NCBI GenBank assembly: GCA_030618495.1
Contig: JAUXDE010000002.1
Coordinates: 1-38,305, forward strand
Length of the DNA: 38,305 bases
Source: Clostridia bacterium
Lineage (GTDB): Bacteria; UBA6262; WVXT01; JAUXBS01
Reading direction: 5' to 3'
A model generated the notes under the pieces. It saw nothing but the letters and a program-made list of their open reading frames with translations. It had not been told where the DNA came from and did no database searches. This document shows positions 3,663 to 18,165 of this stretch, in pieces (position 1 is the stretch's first letter; each line of letters begins with the position of its first letter). Made by a program: the position numbers and the translations under genes.

Positions 3663-3787
3663 AGGGGTCAGACCTTAACATTTAACAAAATCTGAGTTTG
3701 ATACTTATTCAACAACTGCCAACAAATGAGCAAAAATAGTAATAATGTTAAGTGCTACTTTTTGTTAAATGTTAAGGTCTGACCCCT
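3663..3787. repeat. Palindromic repeat A: perfect 28-bp inverted arms with a 69-nt centre
   Basis: The left arm (3663-3690, starting aggggtcagacc) is the exact reverse complement of the right arm (3760-3787, ending ggtctgacccct). The arms flank a 69-nt AT-rich centre. The element fills the gap between the ROK kinase gene and the lptD-like gene, and the right arm overlaps the kinase reading frame. It supplies the last residues (GSDLNI) and the TAA stop. GGGGTCAGACC-type palindromes resemble REP-like elements moved by Y1 (RAYT) transposases. That link is inference, since no transposase gene is present here. Confidence 0.85.
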
Positions 3788-11557: not shown

Positions 11558-11580
11558 TAATTAATTCCAAATTGTGGGGA

Positions 11581-11656
11581 GAATTTGGGGACACGTACCT
11601 AATTATTTTTTTTCGAGTTATGCCTTTAAAATAATTAGGTACGTGTCCCCAAATTC
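11581..11656. repeat. Palindromic repeat B: perfect 29-bp inverted arms, 18-nt loop
   Basis: The left arm (11581-11609, starting gaatttggggacacgtacc) is exactly complementary to the right arm (11628-11656). The loop is ttttcgagttatgccttt. The right arm overlaps the prmC frame and supplies its last residues (NLGTRT) and TAA stop. A short extension ggggaga lies to the left. The same element occurs at 18072-18146 with the loop inverted. It resembles REP/MITE-like sequences moved by Y1 transposases (inference). Confidence 0.92.
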
Positions 11657-12546
11657 ACAACCACTATCCTGTCCTTGCCTGAATAATCCTTCACTATCCT
11701 TTTTAATGATAGTTCACCCGTATCATTAATAATTTTCCTGACCTCACTGCCCTGCTCACTTCCAATTTCCATAATTATGAAACCACCCTCAACCAGGTAC
11801 ATGCCGGCTTCGTTGATTATTCTCCTGTAAAACATGAGTCCGTCTTCACCCGCGTCCAGCGCCCTGGCGGGTTCCCGCAGAACCTCCTCCTGAATGCAGG
11901 CTAAATCCCCGGAACGTATATACGGCGGATTGGATACTATGAAATCCATGTTACAGAAGAAATCCCCCGAGCTGAAAGGATTAAAAAGATCCCCGGCAAA
12001 AAATCTTATATCATCGCTTACCCCGTTGATTTGGGCGTTCCTCCCTGCAACGTCCAGCGCCCTTGCGTCAACATCCGATGCAAACATATCAAAAACAATA
12101 CCTTTATCCTCCTTCAGGTATTTTGCAATGCTTACAGCAATATTACCCGAACCGGTGCACATATCCAATATCTTAACGACCTTCCCATTCTTGCGGTGAT
12201 TGTAACTCCTGATATGTTTTATAGTTTCTTCCACAAGCAACTCGGTTTCAGGCCTCGGGATTAACACATCTTCATTTAAGAAGAATTTTAACCCCATGAA
12301 TTCTTTTTCTCCGGTAAGATATGCCACGGGCTTTCGGCTTATTCTCTGGCGTATTAACTCCATATAGGAAGAAATGACACCCCCGGAAACCATCATGTCG
12401 TTTTTTACTATAAAATCCATCCTATTAATATCAAGTAAGTGGGCAAGCAGTACTTCCGCATCAATCCTGGCATCGGGTATGCCCTTTGCGGAAAGAAGGC
12501 TTTCGGCGTATCTTAAAATATCCCCCGCGCAACGATTTCTTTCCAT
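11635..12546 (-). CDS. prmC: Peptide chain release factor N5-glutamine methyltransferase
   Basis: The SAM-binding motif DMCTGSGNIA is at 128-137 and the glutamine-binding NPPY at 206-209, preceded by the HemK-type helical domain with RKPVAYLTGEKEFMGL and VLIPRPETELLVE. The enzyme methylates the Gln of the GGQ loop of RF1 and RF2; its substrate gene prfA lies directly upstream, 88 bp away. Length (303) is normal for the family. The final residues NLGTRT and the TAA stop are supplied by hairpin repeat B, so the end of this protein has been set by the repeat. A GGAGG lies about 12 nt before the ATG, slightly farther than ideal. Confidence 0.94.
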   Translation of the reverse strand: MERNRCAGDILRYAESLLSAKGIPDARIDAEVLLAHLLDINRMDFIVKNDMMVSGGVISSYMELIRQRISRKPVAYLTGEKEFMGLKFFLNEDVLIPRPETELLVEETIKHIRSYNHRKNGKVVKILDMCTGSGNIAVSIAKYLKEDKGIVFDMFASDVDARALDVAGRNAQINGVSDDIRFFAGDLFNPFSSGDFFCNMDFIVSNPPYIRSGDLACIQEEVLREPARALDAGEDGLMFYRRIINEAGMYLVEGGFIIMEIGSEQGSEVRKIINDTGELSLKRIVKDYSGKDRIVVVNLGTRT

Positions 12547-12634
12547 TAGTTTACAGTTCCTCCGAAACTTTTAACTGGTGGCGCATCAAAAATATTTAAC
12601 TAATAAAGCTCTTTGAAAACCAGCTATAAACAAC

Positions 12635-13681
12635 TTATTCTAATACGCCACTTAACTTCTCAATAAACTCATCAATATTCCCCGCCATGATGTTATCAAG
12701 TTTATGCAAACTGAGATTTATACGGTGATCCGTTACCCTGTCCTGTGGAAAATTATAAGTGCGTATCTTTTCACTCCTGTCTCCCGTGCCTACCTGTTTT
12801 TTTCTTAATTGGGATTGCTCTTTCCTTTCCGCTTCCTTGATTCCCACTGAAAGTCTTGCCCTCAGCACCTTCATGGCTTTGTTCTTGTTCTTGAGCTGAG
12901 ACCTCTCATCCTGGCACTGGACAACAGTTCCGGAGGGAATATGCGTAATACGCACGGCAGAACTTGTTCTGTTGACACTCTGCCCCCCTTTGCCGGATGC
13001 TGAATAGGTATCAATTCTAAGGTCATCCTGCTTTATATCTATTTCCTTCTCTTCAGTTTCAGGCATTACGGCAACTGTCGCGGCGGAAGTATGTATTCTT
13101 CCGCTTGTTTCCGTTTTCGGCACCCGCTGGACACGGTGCACCCCGCTTTCATGCTTAAGTAAACCGTATACATCACTGCCTGCAATGAAAAGAATAACCT
13201 CCTTTATGCCTCCCAGTTCCGTTAAACGGGAACTGATTACTTCCATCTTCCACTTCTTCTTCTCTGCATACCGCGTGTACATTCTCATCAGTTCCGCCGC
13301 CCATAAAGCAGCTTCCCCACCGCCGGTCCCCGCTCTTATTTCAAGGAGCACGTTCCTTTTGTCATCCGGGTCATTTGAAGCAAGCATCATTCTGAGTTCA
13401 CCCTGAAGCGCCTCTTCATCACCGGTCAGTTTCTCAAGCTCTTCCCTTGCCAGCCCCTCCATTGCGGAATCATTTTCACTGATTAATTGGCGGGTATCTT
13501 CTATCTCTCCCTTAACCTTTTTCCACAACCTGAACTTGCCTACTATCAGCCTAATCCGGGAATGCTCCTTCGCAAGTTCCTGGAACCTGTTTTGGTCTGA
13601 AATAACAGAAGGATCAGAAAGCAGTTTTTCCAGTTCGTTATACCTGTTATCTATTTCTCTTAATGTTTCTACAATTTCCAT
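12635..13681 (-). CDS. prfA: Peptide chain release factor 1
   Basis: The 348-residue class I release factor carries the GGQ peptidyl-hydrolysis motif at 232-234 (SGKGGQSVN). The RF1-type recognition tripeptide P-x-T is at 188-190 in [18 protein letters not shown], so it reads UAG and [15 protein letters not shown] near 117-128 is conserved between domains. It lies 22 bp after rpmE and is followed by prmC, which methylates its GGQ glutamine. The long N-terminal helical domain is complete. Confidence 0.97.
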
Positions 13682-13703
13682 TATTTATATCGTGAAATAA
13701 GTA

Positions 13704-14006
13704 TTACTTTTCGGCTTTCTTTGCTTTCTTTACTTTCAAAACCTTTTTTGCCTTCTTGGCTTTCTTCCGTTTTACGGTCTTTTTCCTTACCGTCTTACCC
13801 TCCGTTTTTGCAAAACGGCGCTTAAACTTATCAACCCTTCCGGCAGTGTCAAGCAACTTGTCCTGGCCGGAACCTGTAAAGAAAGGATGGCACGCAGAAC
13901 ATATTTCAACACGAATATTCTGTACCGTGGACCTGGTCTTGCTGGTATTGCCGCAAGCGCAGGAAATTGTTGTATCATAATACTTTGGATGGATTTTTTC
14001 CTTCAT
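13704..14006 (-). CDS. rpmE: 50S ribosomal protein L31 with lysine-rich tail
   Basis: The protein begins [20 protein letters not shown] and continues [23 protein letters not shown], the zinc-binding (four-cysteine, C+) form of L31. The canonical domain ends near residue 70 with VDKFKRRF. About 30 further residues are almost only Lys, Ala, Val and Arg (KKAKKAKK-type), a tail longer than in the usual 66-75-residue family. I chose the ATG at 14006 because GAGGAG stands 6 nt upstream. The longer frame would start at a TTG inside that ribosome-binding region. Zinc-form L31 is the normal housekeeping version. Confidence 0.95.
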
Positions 14007-14055
14007 CTTTGCTCCTCTCAAACCAATTTTAAATACTGCACCGGTTCATATTATT

Positions 14056-14145
14056 TTATTTTTGCTTGTGACGGTTCTTTTTTCTGCGTTTCCTCAGCTT
14101 ATGAGTGCGAATCTTCTGTAGTTTTCTTCTTCTGCCATGCGGCAT
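14056..14145 (-). CDS. 29-residue AURKAIP1/COX24-domain-like basic peptide
   Basis: This tiny gene encodes MPHGRRRKLQKIRTHKLRKR followed by RKKNRHKQK. The pattern M-P-x-G-(K/R)-x-(K/R)-x2-K-I-x-T-H-K-x-(K/R)-K-R-x-(K/R)-x-N-R-H-K is that of the small basic bacterial proteins carrying the COX24/AURKAIP1 C-terminal domain. From memory these are common in Bacteroidota and some other phyla and are thought to be ribosome-associated. A GGAGG stands 6 nt before the ATG, so the gene is well placed for translation. It sits between tyrS (30 bp upstream) and rpmE, in a ribosomal context. Over 60% of residues are Lys, Arg or His. The role is inferred from family and neighbours only. Confidence 0.8.
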   Translation of the reverse strand: MPHGRRRKLQKIRTHKLRKRRKKNRHKQK

Positions 14146-14175
14146 AACAAACCTCCATTTCTATATTAAAGTGTT

Positions 14176-15342
14176 TTAATGGGAAACACGCCTTACTTTT
14201 TTGAATTTCCTCTTTCCTGCCTGTAACACGTACTCCCTGTCCATGACCAGGTCCAGTTTATCATCAACAACTTTTTCCTGGTTTATTCTTAATGCCCCCT
14301 GGTGTATTATTCTTTTCGCATCATTTCTGCTGGTTGCAAGACCCGATAAAACCAGCAGGTTCACTATCCATATCTTCTTCTGGTTGACTTCAACTACCTC
14401 AATATTCTCAGGAAGGCCTTTTTTAACAAAAACCTTTTCAAATTCAGCCCACGACTTCTCAGCCTCAGCCTCACCATGGAACCGCCCTACGATTTCCTTT
14501 GCCAGCTTAATCTTTGCATCACGGGGATCCATTGCCTTAACTTCATCCAGGTCCTTATCCGTAAGCAATTCATAATACCTTACCATAAGCGTATCCGAAA
14601 CCGACATTACCTTTCCAAAAACCTCTATGGCAGGCTCATTTATCCCTATATAATTATCATATGTCTTGCTCATCTTTTTTACGCCGTCAAGGCCTTCAAG
14701 CAACGGCATGGTTATCACTACCTGTGGTTCCATCCCCTTGTCAACCTGAAACTCGCGCCCCATAAGGAGATTAAATATCTGGTCAGTGCCGCCCAGTTCC
14801 ACATCAGCTTCTACCTGTACGGAATCATACGCTTGAAGCAGGGGATACATGAACTCCAGAATACTTATATCTTCGCCTTCGGTATACCTCTTTTTGAAAT
14901 CCGCGCGCGCAAGCATCTGCGCTACCGTGGAATGCGCGGTCAGCTCCAGGAGGTCTGAAAAAGCCATTTTATCGAACCATTCGCTGTTAAAAACTACTTT
15001 TGTCTTTTTCCTGTCAAGTATTTTAAATACCTGTTCCTGGTAAGTCCCGGCATTATCACTGACATCCTTCTGGCTCATTTTCTTCCTTATCTCGCTTCTG
15101 CCGGATGGATCTCCTATACGGGCAGTGTAATCACCTATGATGAACACAACATTATGCCCCATATCCTGAAATGTTTTTAATTTCTCAAGCGCGACCGTAT
15201 GACCGAGATGTAAATCAGAAGAAGTGGGGTCAGCTCCGAATTTAATGTTTAACGGTTTGCCTTTCCCCAGTTTCCTTTCCAGGTCCTTGGCTGAAATAAT
15301 TTCAACAGTTCCTCTTTTTATAGCATTAATATCTTTTCGCAT
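14176..15342 (-). CDS. tyrS: Tyrosyl-tRNA synthetase
   Basis: The class I signature appears as HLGH in [15 protein letters not shown], and the KMSKS motif as [23 protein letters not shown] and the tyrosine-binding [19 protein letters not shown] region are present. An S4 RNA-binding domain closes the protein (about residues 320-388). The form is the bacterial long-HIGH subgroup (TyrRS with about 400 residues). I prefer the ATG at 15342 ([17 protein letters not shown], 388 residues) over an upstream TTG at 15378. The segment between them holds a good promoter whose -10 box ends 7 nt before this ATG, so the mRNA is probably leaderless. The gene diverges from the PBP1A gene. Confidence 0.95.
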
Positions 15343-15349
15343 GGATATC

Positions 15350-15378
15350 TTTATACCAAAAAAACCTCCTTCTTGCAA
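15350..15378 (-). promoter_or_regulatory. tyrS promoter, extended -10, leaderless configuration
   Basis: The minus strand has TTGCAA at 15378-15373, a 17-nt spacer, then TGG-TATAAA with the hexamer at 15355-15350. Seven nt separate it from the ATG at 15342, so transcription should begin at or within a base or two of the start codon. The GGAGG inside the spacer is too far (25 nt) to serve as a ribosome-binding site. Confidence 0.6.
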
Positions 15379-15389
15379 GAAAAAAAGTG

Positions 15390-15417
15390 TTTACAAAATT
15401 TCCTTTTATGATATAAT
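15390..15417 (+). promoter_or_regulatory. PBP1A gene promoter, extended -10, leaderless configuration
   Basis: TTTACA at 15390-15395, a 16-nt spacer and TATAAT at 15412-15417 with an upstream TGA (extended -10). Only aggcgc (6 nt) lies between the -10 box and the ATG at 15424, so a standard start site coincides with the A of ATG. The -35 box lies 11 bp from that of tyrS on the other strand, making a compact divergent promoter pair. Confidence 0.6.
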
Positions 15418-15423
15418 AGGCGC

Positions 15424-17517
15424 ATGATGTTAAAACAAAGAAAGTATTATATAGTATTTATATTTATAATAGCTCTATTTATTTTTATTACAATGTTAAA
15501 GGGATTCTTAAAGGATTTGCCTTCCATTGATTCCCTTGAAGACTACACTCCCGATCTGATAACTAAAATTTATGACATCAACAATGACGTCATAAGTGAA
15601 TTCTTCATTGAACGCAGGACGCTGGTTCCATTATCGGAAATTCCCGTGGACCTGCAGAATGCCGTCATATCGGCGGAAGACACTAATTTTTTCAAGCATT
15701 GGGGCATTGATATATACGGCATTTTCCGTTCCGTCTTCAAGAACTTCCTTCACGGACGCAAACTCCAGGGAGGAAGCACCATAACCATGCAGCTTGCAAG
15801 GGGGCTTTTCCTGTCACGCAAGAAAACCTATGAGAGAAAAATAAGGGAAATACTCCTCTCGGTAAAACTTGAAATGAATTACTCAAAAGAGGAAATCCTG
15901 CAGTTGTACTTGAACCAGATTTTTCTCGGCCACGACATTTACGGTATTGAATCCGCCGCAAAAGGATACTTCAATAAATCCCTTAAGGAACTCAACCTGG
16001 CCGAATGCGCCCTTATTGCGGGGCTCATCCCTTCACCCAACAGGTTTTCCCCATACCATGACCTTGCCCTGGCGTATAAACGCAAGACATATGTTCTAAA
16101 CAGAATGAAACAGGAAAGGTTCATCACTGAAAGCGAGAAAAGGAAAGCAAATAACATTCCCATATACGTACAGAAACGCGAGGAAATCCTGAAACAGGCC
16201 CCTTATTTTGTAGAATGGATACGCCAGCAGTTAGAGGAAAAATACGGCAGTAATGCCATTTACAAGGGCGGGCTGAAAGTATACACAACCCTGGACATGA
16301 AAATGCAGAAAATTGCCGAAAGAATACTTGAGGTTCACCTCATGGACTTTGACAACAGGAGAAAGGAAGAACTACCGAAGGAACTTGAAAAAAAGGAAGT
16401 GGAGATATCCCCTGGGGAACTGGAAGGACTGCTCCAAAAAAAAGTACAGGGCGGCATCATAGCGCTTGATCCGAAAACAGGACAGATACGAACGCTTGTT
16501 GGGGGCAGGGACTTTAAGGAAAGCAAGTTCAACAGGATGATCCAGGCAAAAAGACAGCCCGGCTCCGGTATTAAGCCGATTATTTATACCGCAGCCATTG
16601 AAAACGGCTATACCCCCTCGTATATAATCGATGATTCACCCGTATCTTACTTTAATGATTTTAACAATTGGAAACTGCTTTGCAACACCACCGACCTCTC
16701 AGACCTTGAACCTGAAATTGTGGAAAATATTGACATGGACAGGGTGTGGTCGCCGCAGAACTACAACAAGAAGTTCATGGGCCCTACCATACTGCGCAAT
16801 GCGCTCATTTATTCAAAAAATGTATGCTCCGTAAAACTACTTGACAGGATAAGACCGTTAACGGCTGCCTATTGCGCAGAAAGAATGGGTATATCGACGT
16901 ACATTGAAAAAACGCTGTCCATGGCTTTAGGCACGTCCGAGGTTCTGCCGATCGAACTGGCATCGGTATACGGTGTCCTGGCAAACCAGGGGATCAAAAC
17001 GAAGCCTTACAGCATAATCAGGGTCAAGGATATGGCGGGGAACGTATTGGAAGAAAACTTCCCTGAAGAAGAGGAAATATTAACCACTCAGAACGCTTAT
17101 ATCGTCACTCACCTTATGAGCGAGGTATGTGAATACGGCACGGGCAGGTATACCAGGCTTCTAAGACGGCCGCGGGCAGGAAAGACAGGCACGACTAATG
17201 AGTACACGGACGCCTGGTTCACGGGGTTCGTACCCAACCTCATATGCTGCGTATGGGTCGGTTACGATGATAACATGACGCTCGGTGAAAAGAAAACCGG
17301 CGGGGGCGTTGCCGCTCCGATATGGACTGACTTCATGAAGGCTGTACTTGCGGATACGCCTGTCCTCGACTTCCCGGTGCCCCCGGGCATCACCTTTGCC
17401 AAAATCGATACCAAAACAGGACTGCTGGCTTTAGAAGACAGCGAAGACACTGTCCTGGAAGCATACATAACGGGAACCGAACCAACAGAATATTCACTAC
17501 CAAATAATAACGAATAG
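15424..17517 (+). CDS. Penicillin-binding protein 1A-type bifunctional murein synthase
   Basis: A short cytoplasmic start and one membrane anchor (about residues 8-28) precede a GT51 glycosyltransferase domain. Its catalytic Glu85 is in ISAEDTNFFKHWG, followed by QGGSTITMQLARGLFLS. The transpeptidase domain has S381-x2-K384 in RQPGSGIKP, S464-K-N466 and K587-T-G in RAGKTGTTNEYTDAWF. The enzyme polymerises lipid II and crosslinks peptidoglycan in the periplasm. All catalytic motifs are intact and length (697) is normal for the PBP1A/PonA family. The gene starts ATGATG without a ribosome-binding site, next to a -10 box. The DUF2148 gene follows 15 bp later. Confidence 0.94.
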   Translation: MMLKQRKYYIVFIFIIALFIFITMLKGFLKDLPSIDSLEDYTPDLITKIYDINNDVISEFFIERRTLVPLSEIPVDLQNAVISAEDTNFFKHWGIDIYGIFRSVFKNFLHGRKLQGGSTITMQLARGLFLSRKKTYERKIREILLSVKLEMNYSKEEILQLYLNQIFLGHDIYGIESAAKGYFNKSLKELNLAECALIAGLIPSPNRFSPYHDLALAYKRKTYVLNRMKQERFITESEKRKANNIPIYVQKREEILKQAPYFVEWIRQQLEEKYGSNAIYKGGLKVYTTLDMKMQKIAERILEVHLMDFDNRRKEELPKELEKKEVEISPGELEGLLQKKVQGGIIALDPKTGQIRTLVGGRDFKESKFNRMIQAKRQPGSGIKPIIYTAAIENGYTPSYIIDDSPVSYFNDFNNWKLLCNTTDLSDLEPEIVENIDMDRVWSPQNYNKKFMGPTILRNALIYSKNVCSVKLLDRIRPLTAAYCAERMGISTYIEKTLSMALGTSEVLPIELASVYGVLANQGIKTKPYSIIRVKDMAGNVLEENFPEEEEILTTQNAYIVTHLMSEVCEYGTGRYTRLLRRPRAGKTGTTNEYTDAWFTGFVPNLICCVWVGYDDNMTLGEKKTGGGVAAPIWTDFMKAVLADTPVLDFPVPPGITFAKIDTKTGLLALEDSEDTVLEAYITGTEPTEYSLPNNNE

Positions 17518-17532
17518 AGGAGACATAAAACC

Positions 17533-18063
17533 ATGCTAAAAAAAGATATCAACGCCGAGCATGAAGGAATTCTTGATATTGCGAACCTCATATGTATTGC
17601 AGCCCGTACCGCGCCAAAGGGTAAAGGTGTGGATAATATAGTCACCGCCATTGCAACTGAAAAAGATAAGGAAGAAATCGCCCGAAAAATGAAATCAATC
17701 GGCGAGAAAAACGGCAACAAGACCTTCCTGAGGGATTCGGACAATATCAACCGGGCGCAGGTTATCGTAATCATCGGCACCAAAACAAATCCTCTCAAAC
17801 TGAAACTCTGCGGTTTCTGCGGATTCAAGGATTGTGATGAAATGGAAAAGAACCGGGGAATTTGCGTTTTTAATTCAGGGGACCTGGGAATCGCAATAGG
17901 TTCGGCAGTCTCAACCGCCTCCATTCATAAGGTTGATAACCGTATCATGTACACGGTTGGATATGCAGCCCTTGAGATGAAATTACTTGGAGATGACGTG
18001 AGGATTGCCTACGGAATTCCACTTTCGGTAACCGGCAAGAACATCTTTTTCGACAGGAAATAA
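17533..18063 (+). CDS. DUF2148 ferredoxin-like Fe-S protein
   Basis: The 176-residue protein fits the DUF2148 family: ANLICIAARTAPKGKGVDNI at the N-terminus, QVIVIIGTK in the middle, then C93, C96, C101 and C111 in LCGFCGFKDCDEM and GICVF. C21 is also conserved. These cysteines probably bind an iron-sulfur cluster. The family occurs mainly in anaerobes and has no firm biochemical role. An AGGAG stands 10 nt before the ATG. It lies 15 bp after the PBP1A gene and likely shares its transcript. The TAA stop is flush with hairpin repeat C. No membrane segment or signal peptide is seen. Confidence 0.85.
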   Translation: MLKKDINAEHEGILDIANLICIAARTAPKGKGVDNIVTAIATEKDKEEIARKMKSIGEKNGNKTFLRDSDNINRAQVIVIIGTKTNPLKLKLCGFCGFKDCDEMEKNRGICVFNSGDLGIAIGSAVSTASIHKVDNRIMYTVGYAALEMKLLGDDVRIAYGIPLSVTGKNIFFDRK

Positions 18064-18165
18064 TTTGGGGAGAATTTGGGGACACGTACCTAATTATTTT
18101 AAAGGCATAACTCGAAAAAAAATAATTAGGTACGTGTCCCCAAATTATTTGTCCCCAAATTATTA
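18061..18165. repeat. Palindromic repeat C: near-copy of repeat B with inverted loop, plus outer half-repeats
   Basis: The core arms at 18072-18100 and 18119-18146 are identical to those of repeat B (28-29 bp, perfectly complementary). The 18-nt loop is the exact reverse complement of repeat B's loop. Extra copies of the motif taatttgggga lie outside each arm (18061-18071, and on the minus strand near 18151-18163). The element fills the whole gap between two convergent genes, with a stop codon at each edge. It could serve as a bidirectional 3'-end hairpin, though T-runs are absent after the stem. Confidence 0.92.

Follow-up and report, generated by a model that had tools for sequence, protein, structure and literature searches.

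Hairpins B and C, which lie in a 38,305-nt stretch of a Clostridia bacterium contig (the window), are, judging from their sequences, very probably recent non-autonomous miniature copies of a Y1 transposase element that were inserted in opposite orientations, with the extension TGGGGAG beside each of them being a fragment of the element's tip. Both hairpins are perfect. On the forward strand, B (11581-11656) consists of a 29-nt left arm, GAATTTGGGGACACGTACCTAATTATTTT (11581-11609), an 18-nt loop, TTTTCGAGTTATGCCTTT (11610-11627), and a 29-nt right arm (11628-11656), and C (18073-18146) consists of a 28-nt left arm (18073-18100), an 18-nt loop, AAAGGCATAACTCGAAAA (18101-18118), and a 28-nt right arm (18119-18146). 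Their DNA folding energies are -30 to -33 kcal/mol (z about -11). As claimed in an earlier sequence-only reading of this DNA, which placed both hairpins correctly, the 28-29-bp arms of B and C are identical and form direct as well as inverted repeats: a 35-nt direct repeat covers the left sides (11575-11609 and 18066-18100) and a 28-nt direct repeat the right arms (11628-11655 and 18119-18146). The loops are exact reverse complements, which follows from the exact reverse complementarity of B and C over 75 nt (11582-11656 and 18072-18146). The common left extension is also real; it comprises 7 nt, TGGGGAG, outside the AATTTGGGG arm, and beyond it the flanks diverge, ending in AAATTG at B and in ATAATT at C. 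That reading had further held that C is not simply B in opposite orientation, but C is the reverse complement of B over these 75 nt and TGGGGAG is the sole evidence to the contrary.

A parent with the same ends is present in the genome (G000). Its single Y1_Tnp gene lies in an element at about 1150-1981 of contig C61 and encodes a 218-aa product (domain at 1466-1789); the gene is bounded by inverted AATTTGGGGACACGTACCTAATTATT tips identical to the B and C arms, and the inverted GGGGACAC tips enclosing it at C61:1156 and 1963 agree with the GGGGWSAS motif. The product matched PF01797 (E 2e-14, above the cut-off) and PDB 4er8 (TnpArep; E 5e-5), and it matched NCBIfam REP_Tyr_transpos with E 4.5e-18 and 65.5 bits, below the cut-off of 80; the motifs NHVH and YVELNP are visible in its sequence. 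By these matches, the predicted transposase is related to TnpAREP (RAYT/TnpAREP-like), and the suggested link to a Y1-type transposase is thus borne out by a single Y1_Tnp gene between the same tips. In Omnitrophota, Aminicenantes and others, genes for related transposases likewise lie between inverted GGGGACA tips, and hairpin dimers are also found in the genomes of several of these relatives.

B and C would be inverted-tip dimers of a REPIN/MITE-like kind, with the C61 element as their sole full-length parent in the same genome. By analogy with TnpAREP and IS200/IS605 enzymes, from which the nicking and transfer chemistry is inferred (PMC8266576), the Y1 enzyme would most likely act on the single-stranded hairpin, cut it at its foot and join it elsewhere in either orientation; both orientations would occur because either strand could be inserted. 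Each arm being the perfect reverse complement of the other, the arms would look the same whichever strand was inserted, and only the loop would appear inverted.

The sequence-only reading had instead proposed that one loop flipped between its arms. Under this alternative, a longer ancestor included TGGGGAG, and the loop was later turned in place through template switching in replication, through recombination or through re-ligation by the transposase; TGGGGAG does lie on the same side of B and C despite their opposite loops, and such an event could in principle use the perfect 28-bp inverted arms as its substrate. Independent insertions in opposite orientations account for all the observations without a flip. 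We consider the flip unlikely, because the extension is a recurrent tip fragment that another genome carries in identical form, because upstream of TGGGGAG the fragment beside B is of one tip subtype and that beside C of another, and because fragments stay apart from loops in other families and C has a fragment on its opposite side too. A loop flip was therefore dropped as the main explanation, the flank match being a recurrent junction and close to the accidental match that would speak against a flip. A larger inversion, of the 6.4 kb that separate B from C, was rejected as well, since it would leave the orientation of each loop to its outer flank unchanged. Loop orientation is meaningful for the B and C pair only, since the strands of other contigs are arbitrary and their flanks unrelated.

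TGGGGAG derives from the tip of the element itself, of which it is a truncated copy. The fragment left of B, AATTGTGGGGA (11570-11580, plus strand; AATTRT-type tip), and the fragment left of C, AATTTGGGGA (18062-18071, plus strand; AATTT-type tip), which overlaps the stop codon of the DUF2148 gene, match the two tip subtypes found in the genome, AATTAT and AATTT, respectively, and so are probably pieces of different tips. C carries a GGGGA-type fragment on both sides, the right one being TGTCCCCAAATT (18150-18161; AATTTGGGGACA on the minus strand), and aligning C to B either way leaves a tip fragment at the left. Such cut-off tips precede many element ends, for example ATTATGGGGA followed by ATTAT, GGGGACA followed by T and AATTAT, and GGGGACACGTACCTAATTA followed by G and AATTT. 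GGGGA was found within 45 nt upstream of 14 of 50 element ends in this genome, or about 13 of 50 when L042, evidently a chance match, is set aside, against a background of 3.9% in random 45-nt stretches from the window (0.4% for ATT..GGGGA). The B and C junction, GGGGAG/AATT, recurs at L225 and L248 in an unrelated genome, where both read GGGGAG/AATTAT. By a hand tally, about 5 of 18 junctions are of the GGGGA type, so it is unremarkable that B and C share this class; even so, that both have TGGGGAG remains coincidental within a recurrent type of junction and is not predicted for this pair specifically. The elements at C28 and C128 have the same loop, yet the former has a fragment on each side and the latter none, and the element at C3 has no tip fragment, indicating that fragments do not move along with the element. 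They would instead form locally, either by insertion into or beside a resident copy or by partial deletion of a resident copy.

We compared the two loci across related genomes. In the congener G001 the C site is empty: about 20 nt lie between the DUF2148 stop codon and the end of PorV, against about 110 nt in the window. No empty site for B was found in G001, in which the gene is missing. B sits in the gap between prmC and murA. Read on the minus strand, its right arm forms the end of prmC (VV-NLGTRT-stop), and alignments with homologues from the sister genus cover only residues 8-297 of the 303 in the window prmC. Because these alignments end at residue 297, the final six residues of the predicted product (NLGTRT) and the stop codon are, on this alignment, derived from B (11635-11655, minus strand). 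In the sister genus, prmC ends in sequence of a different tip family. There, the prmC-murA gap of G002 contains AAAATGGGGTCAG, a tip fragment, and after it a complete hairpin of the GGGGTCAG type, and that of G003, whose translated prmC end is matched by G005, contains the tip fragment alone. These gaps, with and without the GGGGTCAG element and with the fragment in both (L253:1990-2130 and L255:2370-2410), form a natural before/after pair. Insertion beside a fragment and loss of an element that left its fragment behind are both possible, and either way fragment and element are separable at this locus.

The evidence comes from one draft assembly (1.69 Mb, 179 contigs) and its relatives. The 13-nt tip GGGGACACGTACC has 36 exact copies in this genome, against none for the tip read backwards, and further copies, including a GTACT subfamily, appear when mismatches are allowed. 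A 16-nt tip occurs four times exactly, whereas 0.34 occurrences would be expected even with three mismatches allowed, a recurrence far beyond chance. Tip repeats occur as single, dimeric and grouped units, and about 20 hairpin dimers could be delimited, which have similar arms and several groups of loops. The sole other relative of the B and C loop is at C3, 94% identical over 77 nt; together with the identity of B and C over 75 nt, this agrees with the recent spread already suggested from the sequence. Contigs C50, C121, C133, C152 and C166 stop within or just past elements, suggesting that the assembly breaks at these repeats and that copies are therefore undercounted. The exact tip was essentially absent from 60 other genomes, the congener included, and a literature search returned no match to it. 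B and C are strong hairpins in intergenic positions, C between convergent genes, as would befit static structural repeats (transcription terminators or RNA hairpins) kept alike by selection without transposition; this explanation is extremely improbable, as the identity is exact even in the loop, a transposase gene has the same ends, the congener site is empty and Rfam gave no match for the hairpins.

Other palindromes occur beside this family. A second family is represented in the window at 3663-3787 by AGGGGTCAGACCTTAACATTTAACAAAA, which has a 69-nt loop and a tip fitting GGGGWSAS; its GGGGTCAGRYCT tips number 18 in the genome, where no second Y1 gene was found. At C106:6980-7115 (L043 and L172), a GGGGACAC hairpin of the present family is nested within a GGGGTCAG-type palindrome, which has a repeated tip of its own.

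The two arms of each element vary in concert. The inner C/T base is concordant between the arms in all 21 elements compared (12.4 expected) and the outer subtype in 17 (8.8 expected), and none of 20,000 shuffles was as high, although these statistics are inflated by kinship between copies. Loops are also shared across different arm types, as at C152 versus C82 and C88; L217 and L218 of G066 have exact reverse-complement loops, and a single base differs in their arms, changed on each side (CAACAC versus CGACAC). These cases indicate that both arms change together, and compensatory stem changes have been described for published REPINs too (PMC3116915). Such concerted change could be expected if gene conversion had homogenised B and C after independent old insertions, but arm-to-arm correction could not homogenise the loops of two elements, and recent copying accounts for loop and arms jointly; we regard this alternative as very improbable. 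It is also unlikely that hairpin processing inverts the loop of an inverted-tip dimer in place, or rewrites the arms around a kept loop, with single loci switching as a result.

Among known systems, the present one appears from its sequence to be of the TIRYT/TIRtron type (terminal-inverted-repeat-associated tyrosine transposases), which comprises RAYT-like genes with flanking GGGGWSAS terminal inverted repeats and single, dimeric or grouped repeat units (Di Nocera et al. 2013, PMC3733652), and shows its main features: a TnpAREP-related Y1 HuH transposase, GGGGWSAS inverted repeats (here GGGGACAC) and extra repeat units in the genome. Most TIRYT have been placed in subclass 2.1, for which a C-terminal HTH was reported (Quentin et al. 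2018, PMC6006769), and TIRYT/TIRtrons probably correspond to that subclass. Unlike in that subclass, no C-terminal HTH domain was detected by Pfam at E values up to 10 in the transposase and four relatives, a search that a short degenerate HTH could escape; the host lineage and the set of hairpin copies are also new. As in REPIN/RAYT systems, two inverted units form a hairpin with a variable spacer and changes on one side of the stem are compensated on the other (Bertels and Rainey 2011, PMC3116915), and mobilisation would occur in trans by a single-copy Y1 enzyme, as is thought for REPINs (PMC3116915). Unlike in REPINs, the arms have no GTAG-tagged small palindrome and there are only about 20 copies; the arm AATTTGGGGACACGTACCTAATTATT lacks GTAG and pairs solely with its partner arm instead of folding on itself, and thus falls outside the GTAG-based REP definition. 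The internally deleted copies that retain the ends of their parent resemble IS200/IS605-like MITEs, but the parent here is bounded by simple inverted tips and not by imperfect subterminal hairpins that differ in sequence.

These results remove a false lead, since perfect inverted arms make insertions in opposite orientations always resemble loop flips. They also add, for a bacterial lineage that has been little sampled, a well-resolved TIRYT-type family in which one parent gene and its miniature copies are accompanied by tip fragments, arms that change in concert and an empty site. How these enzymes choose their sites could become clearer from comparing loci that have a tip fragment according to whether an element lies beside it.
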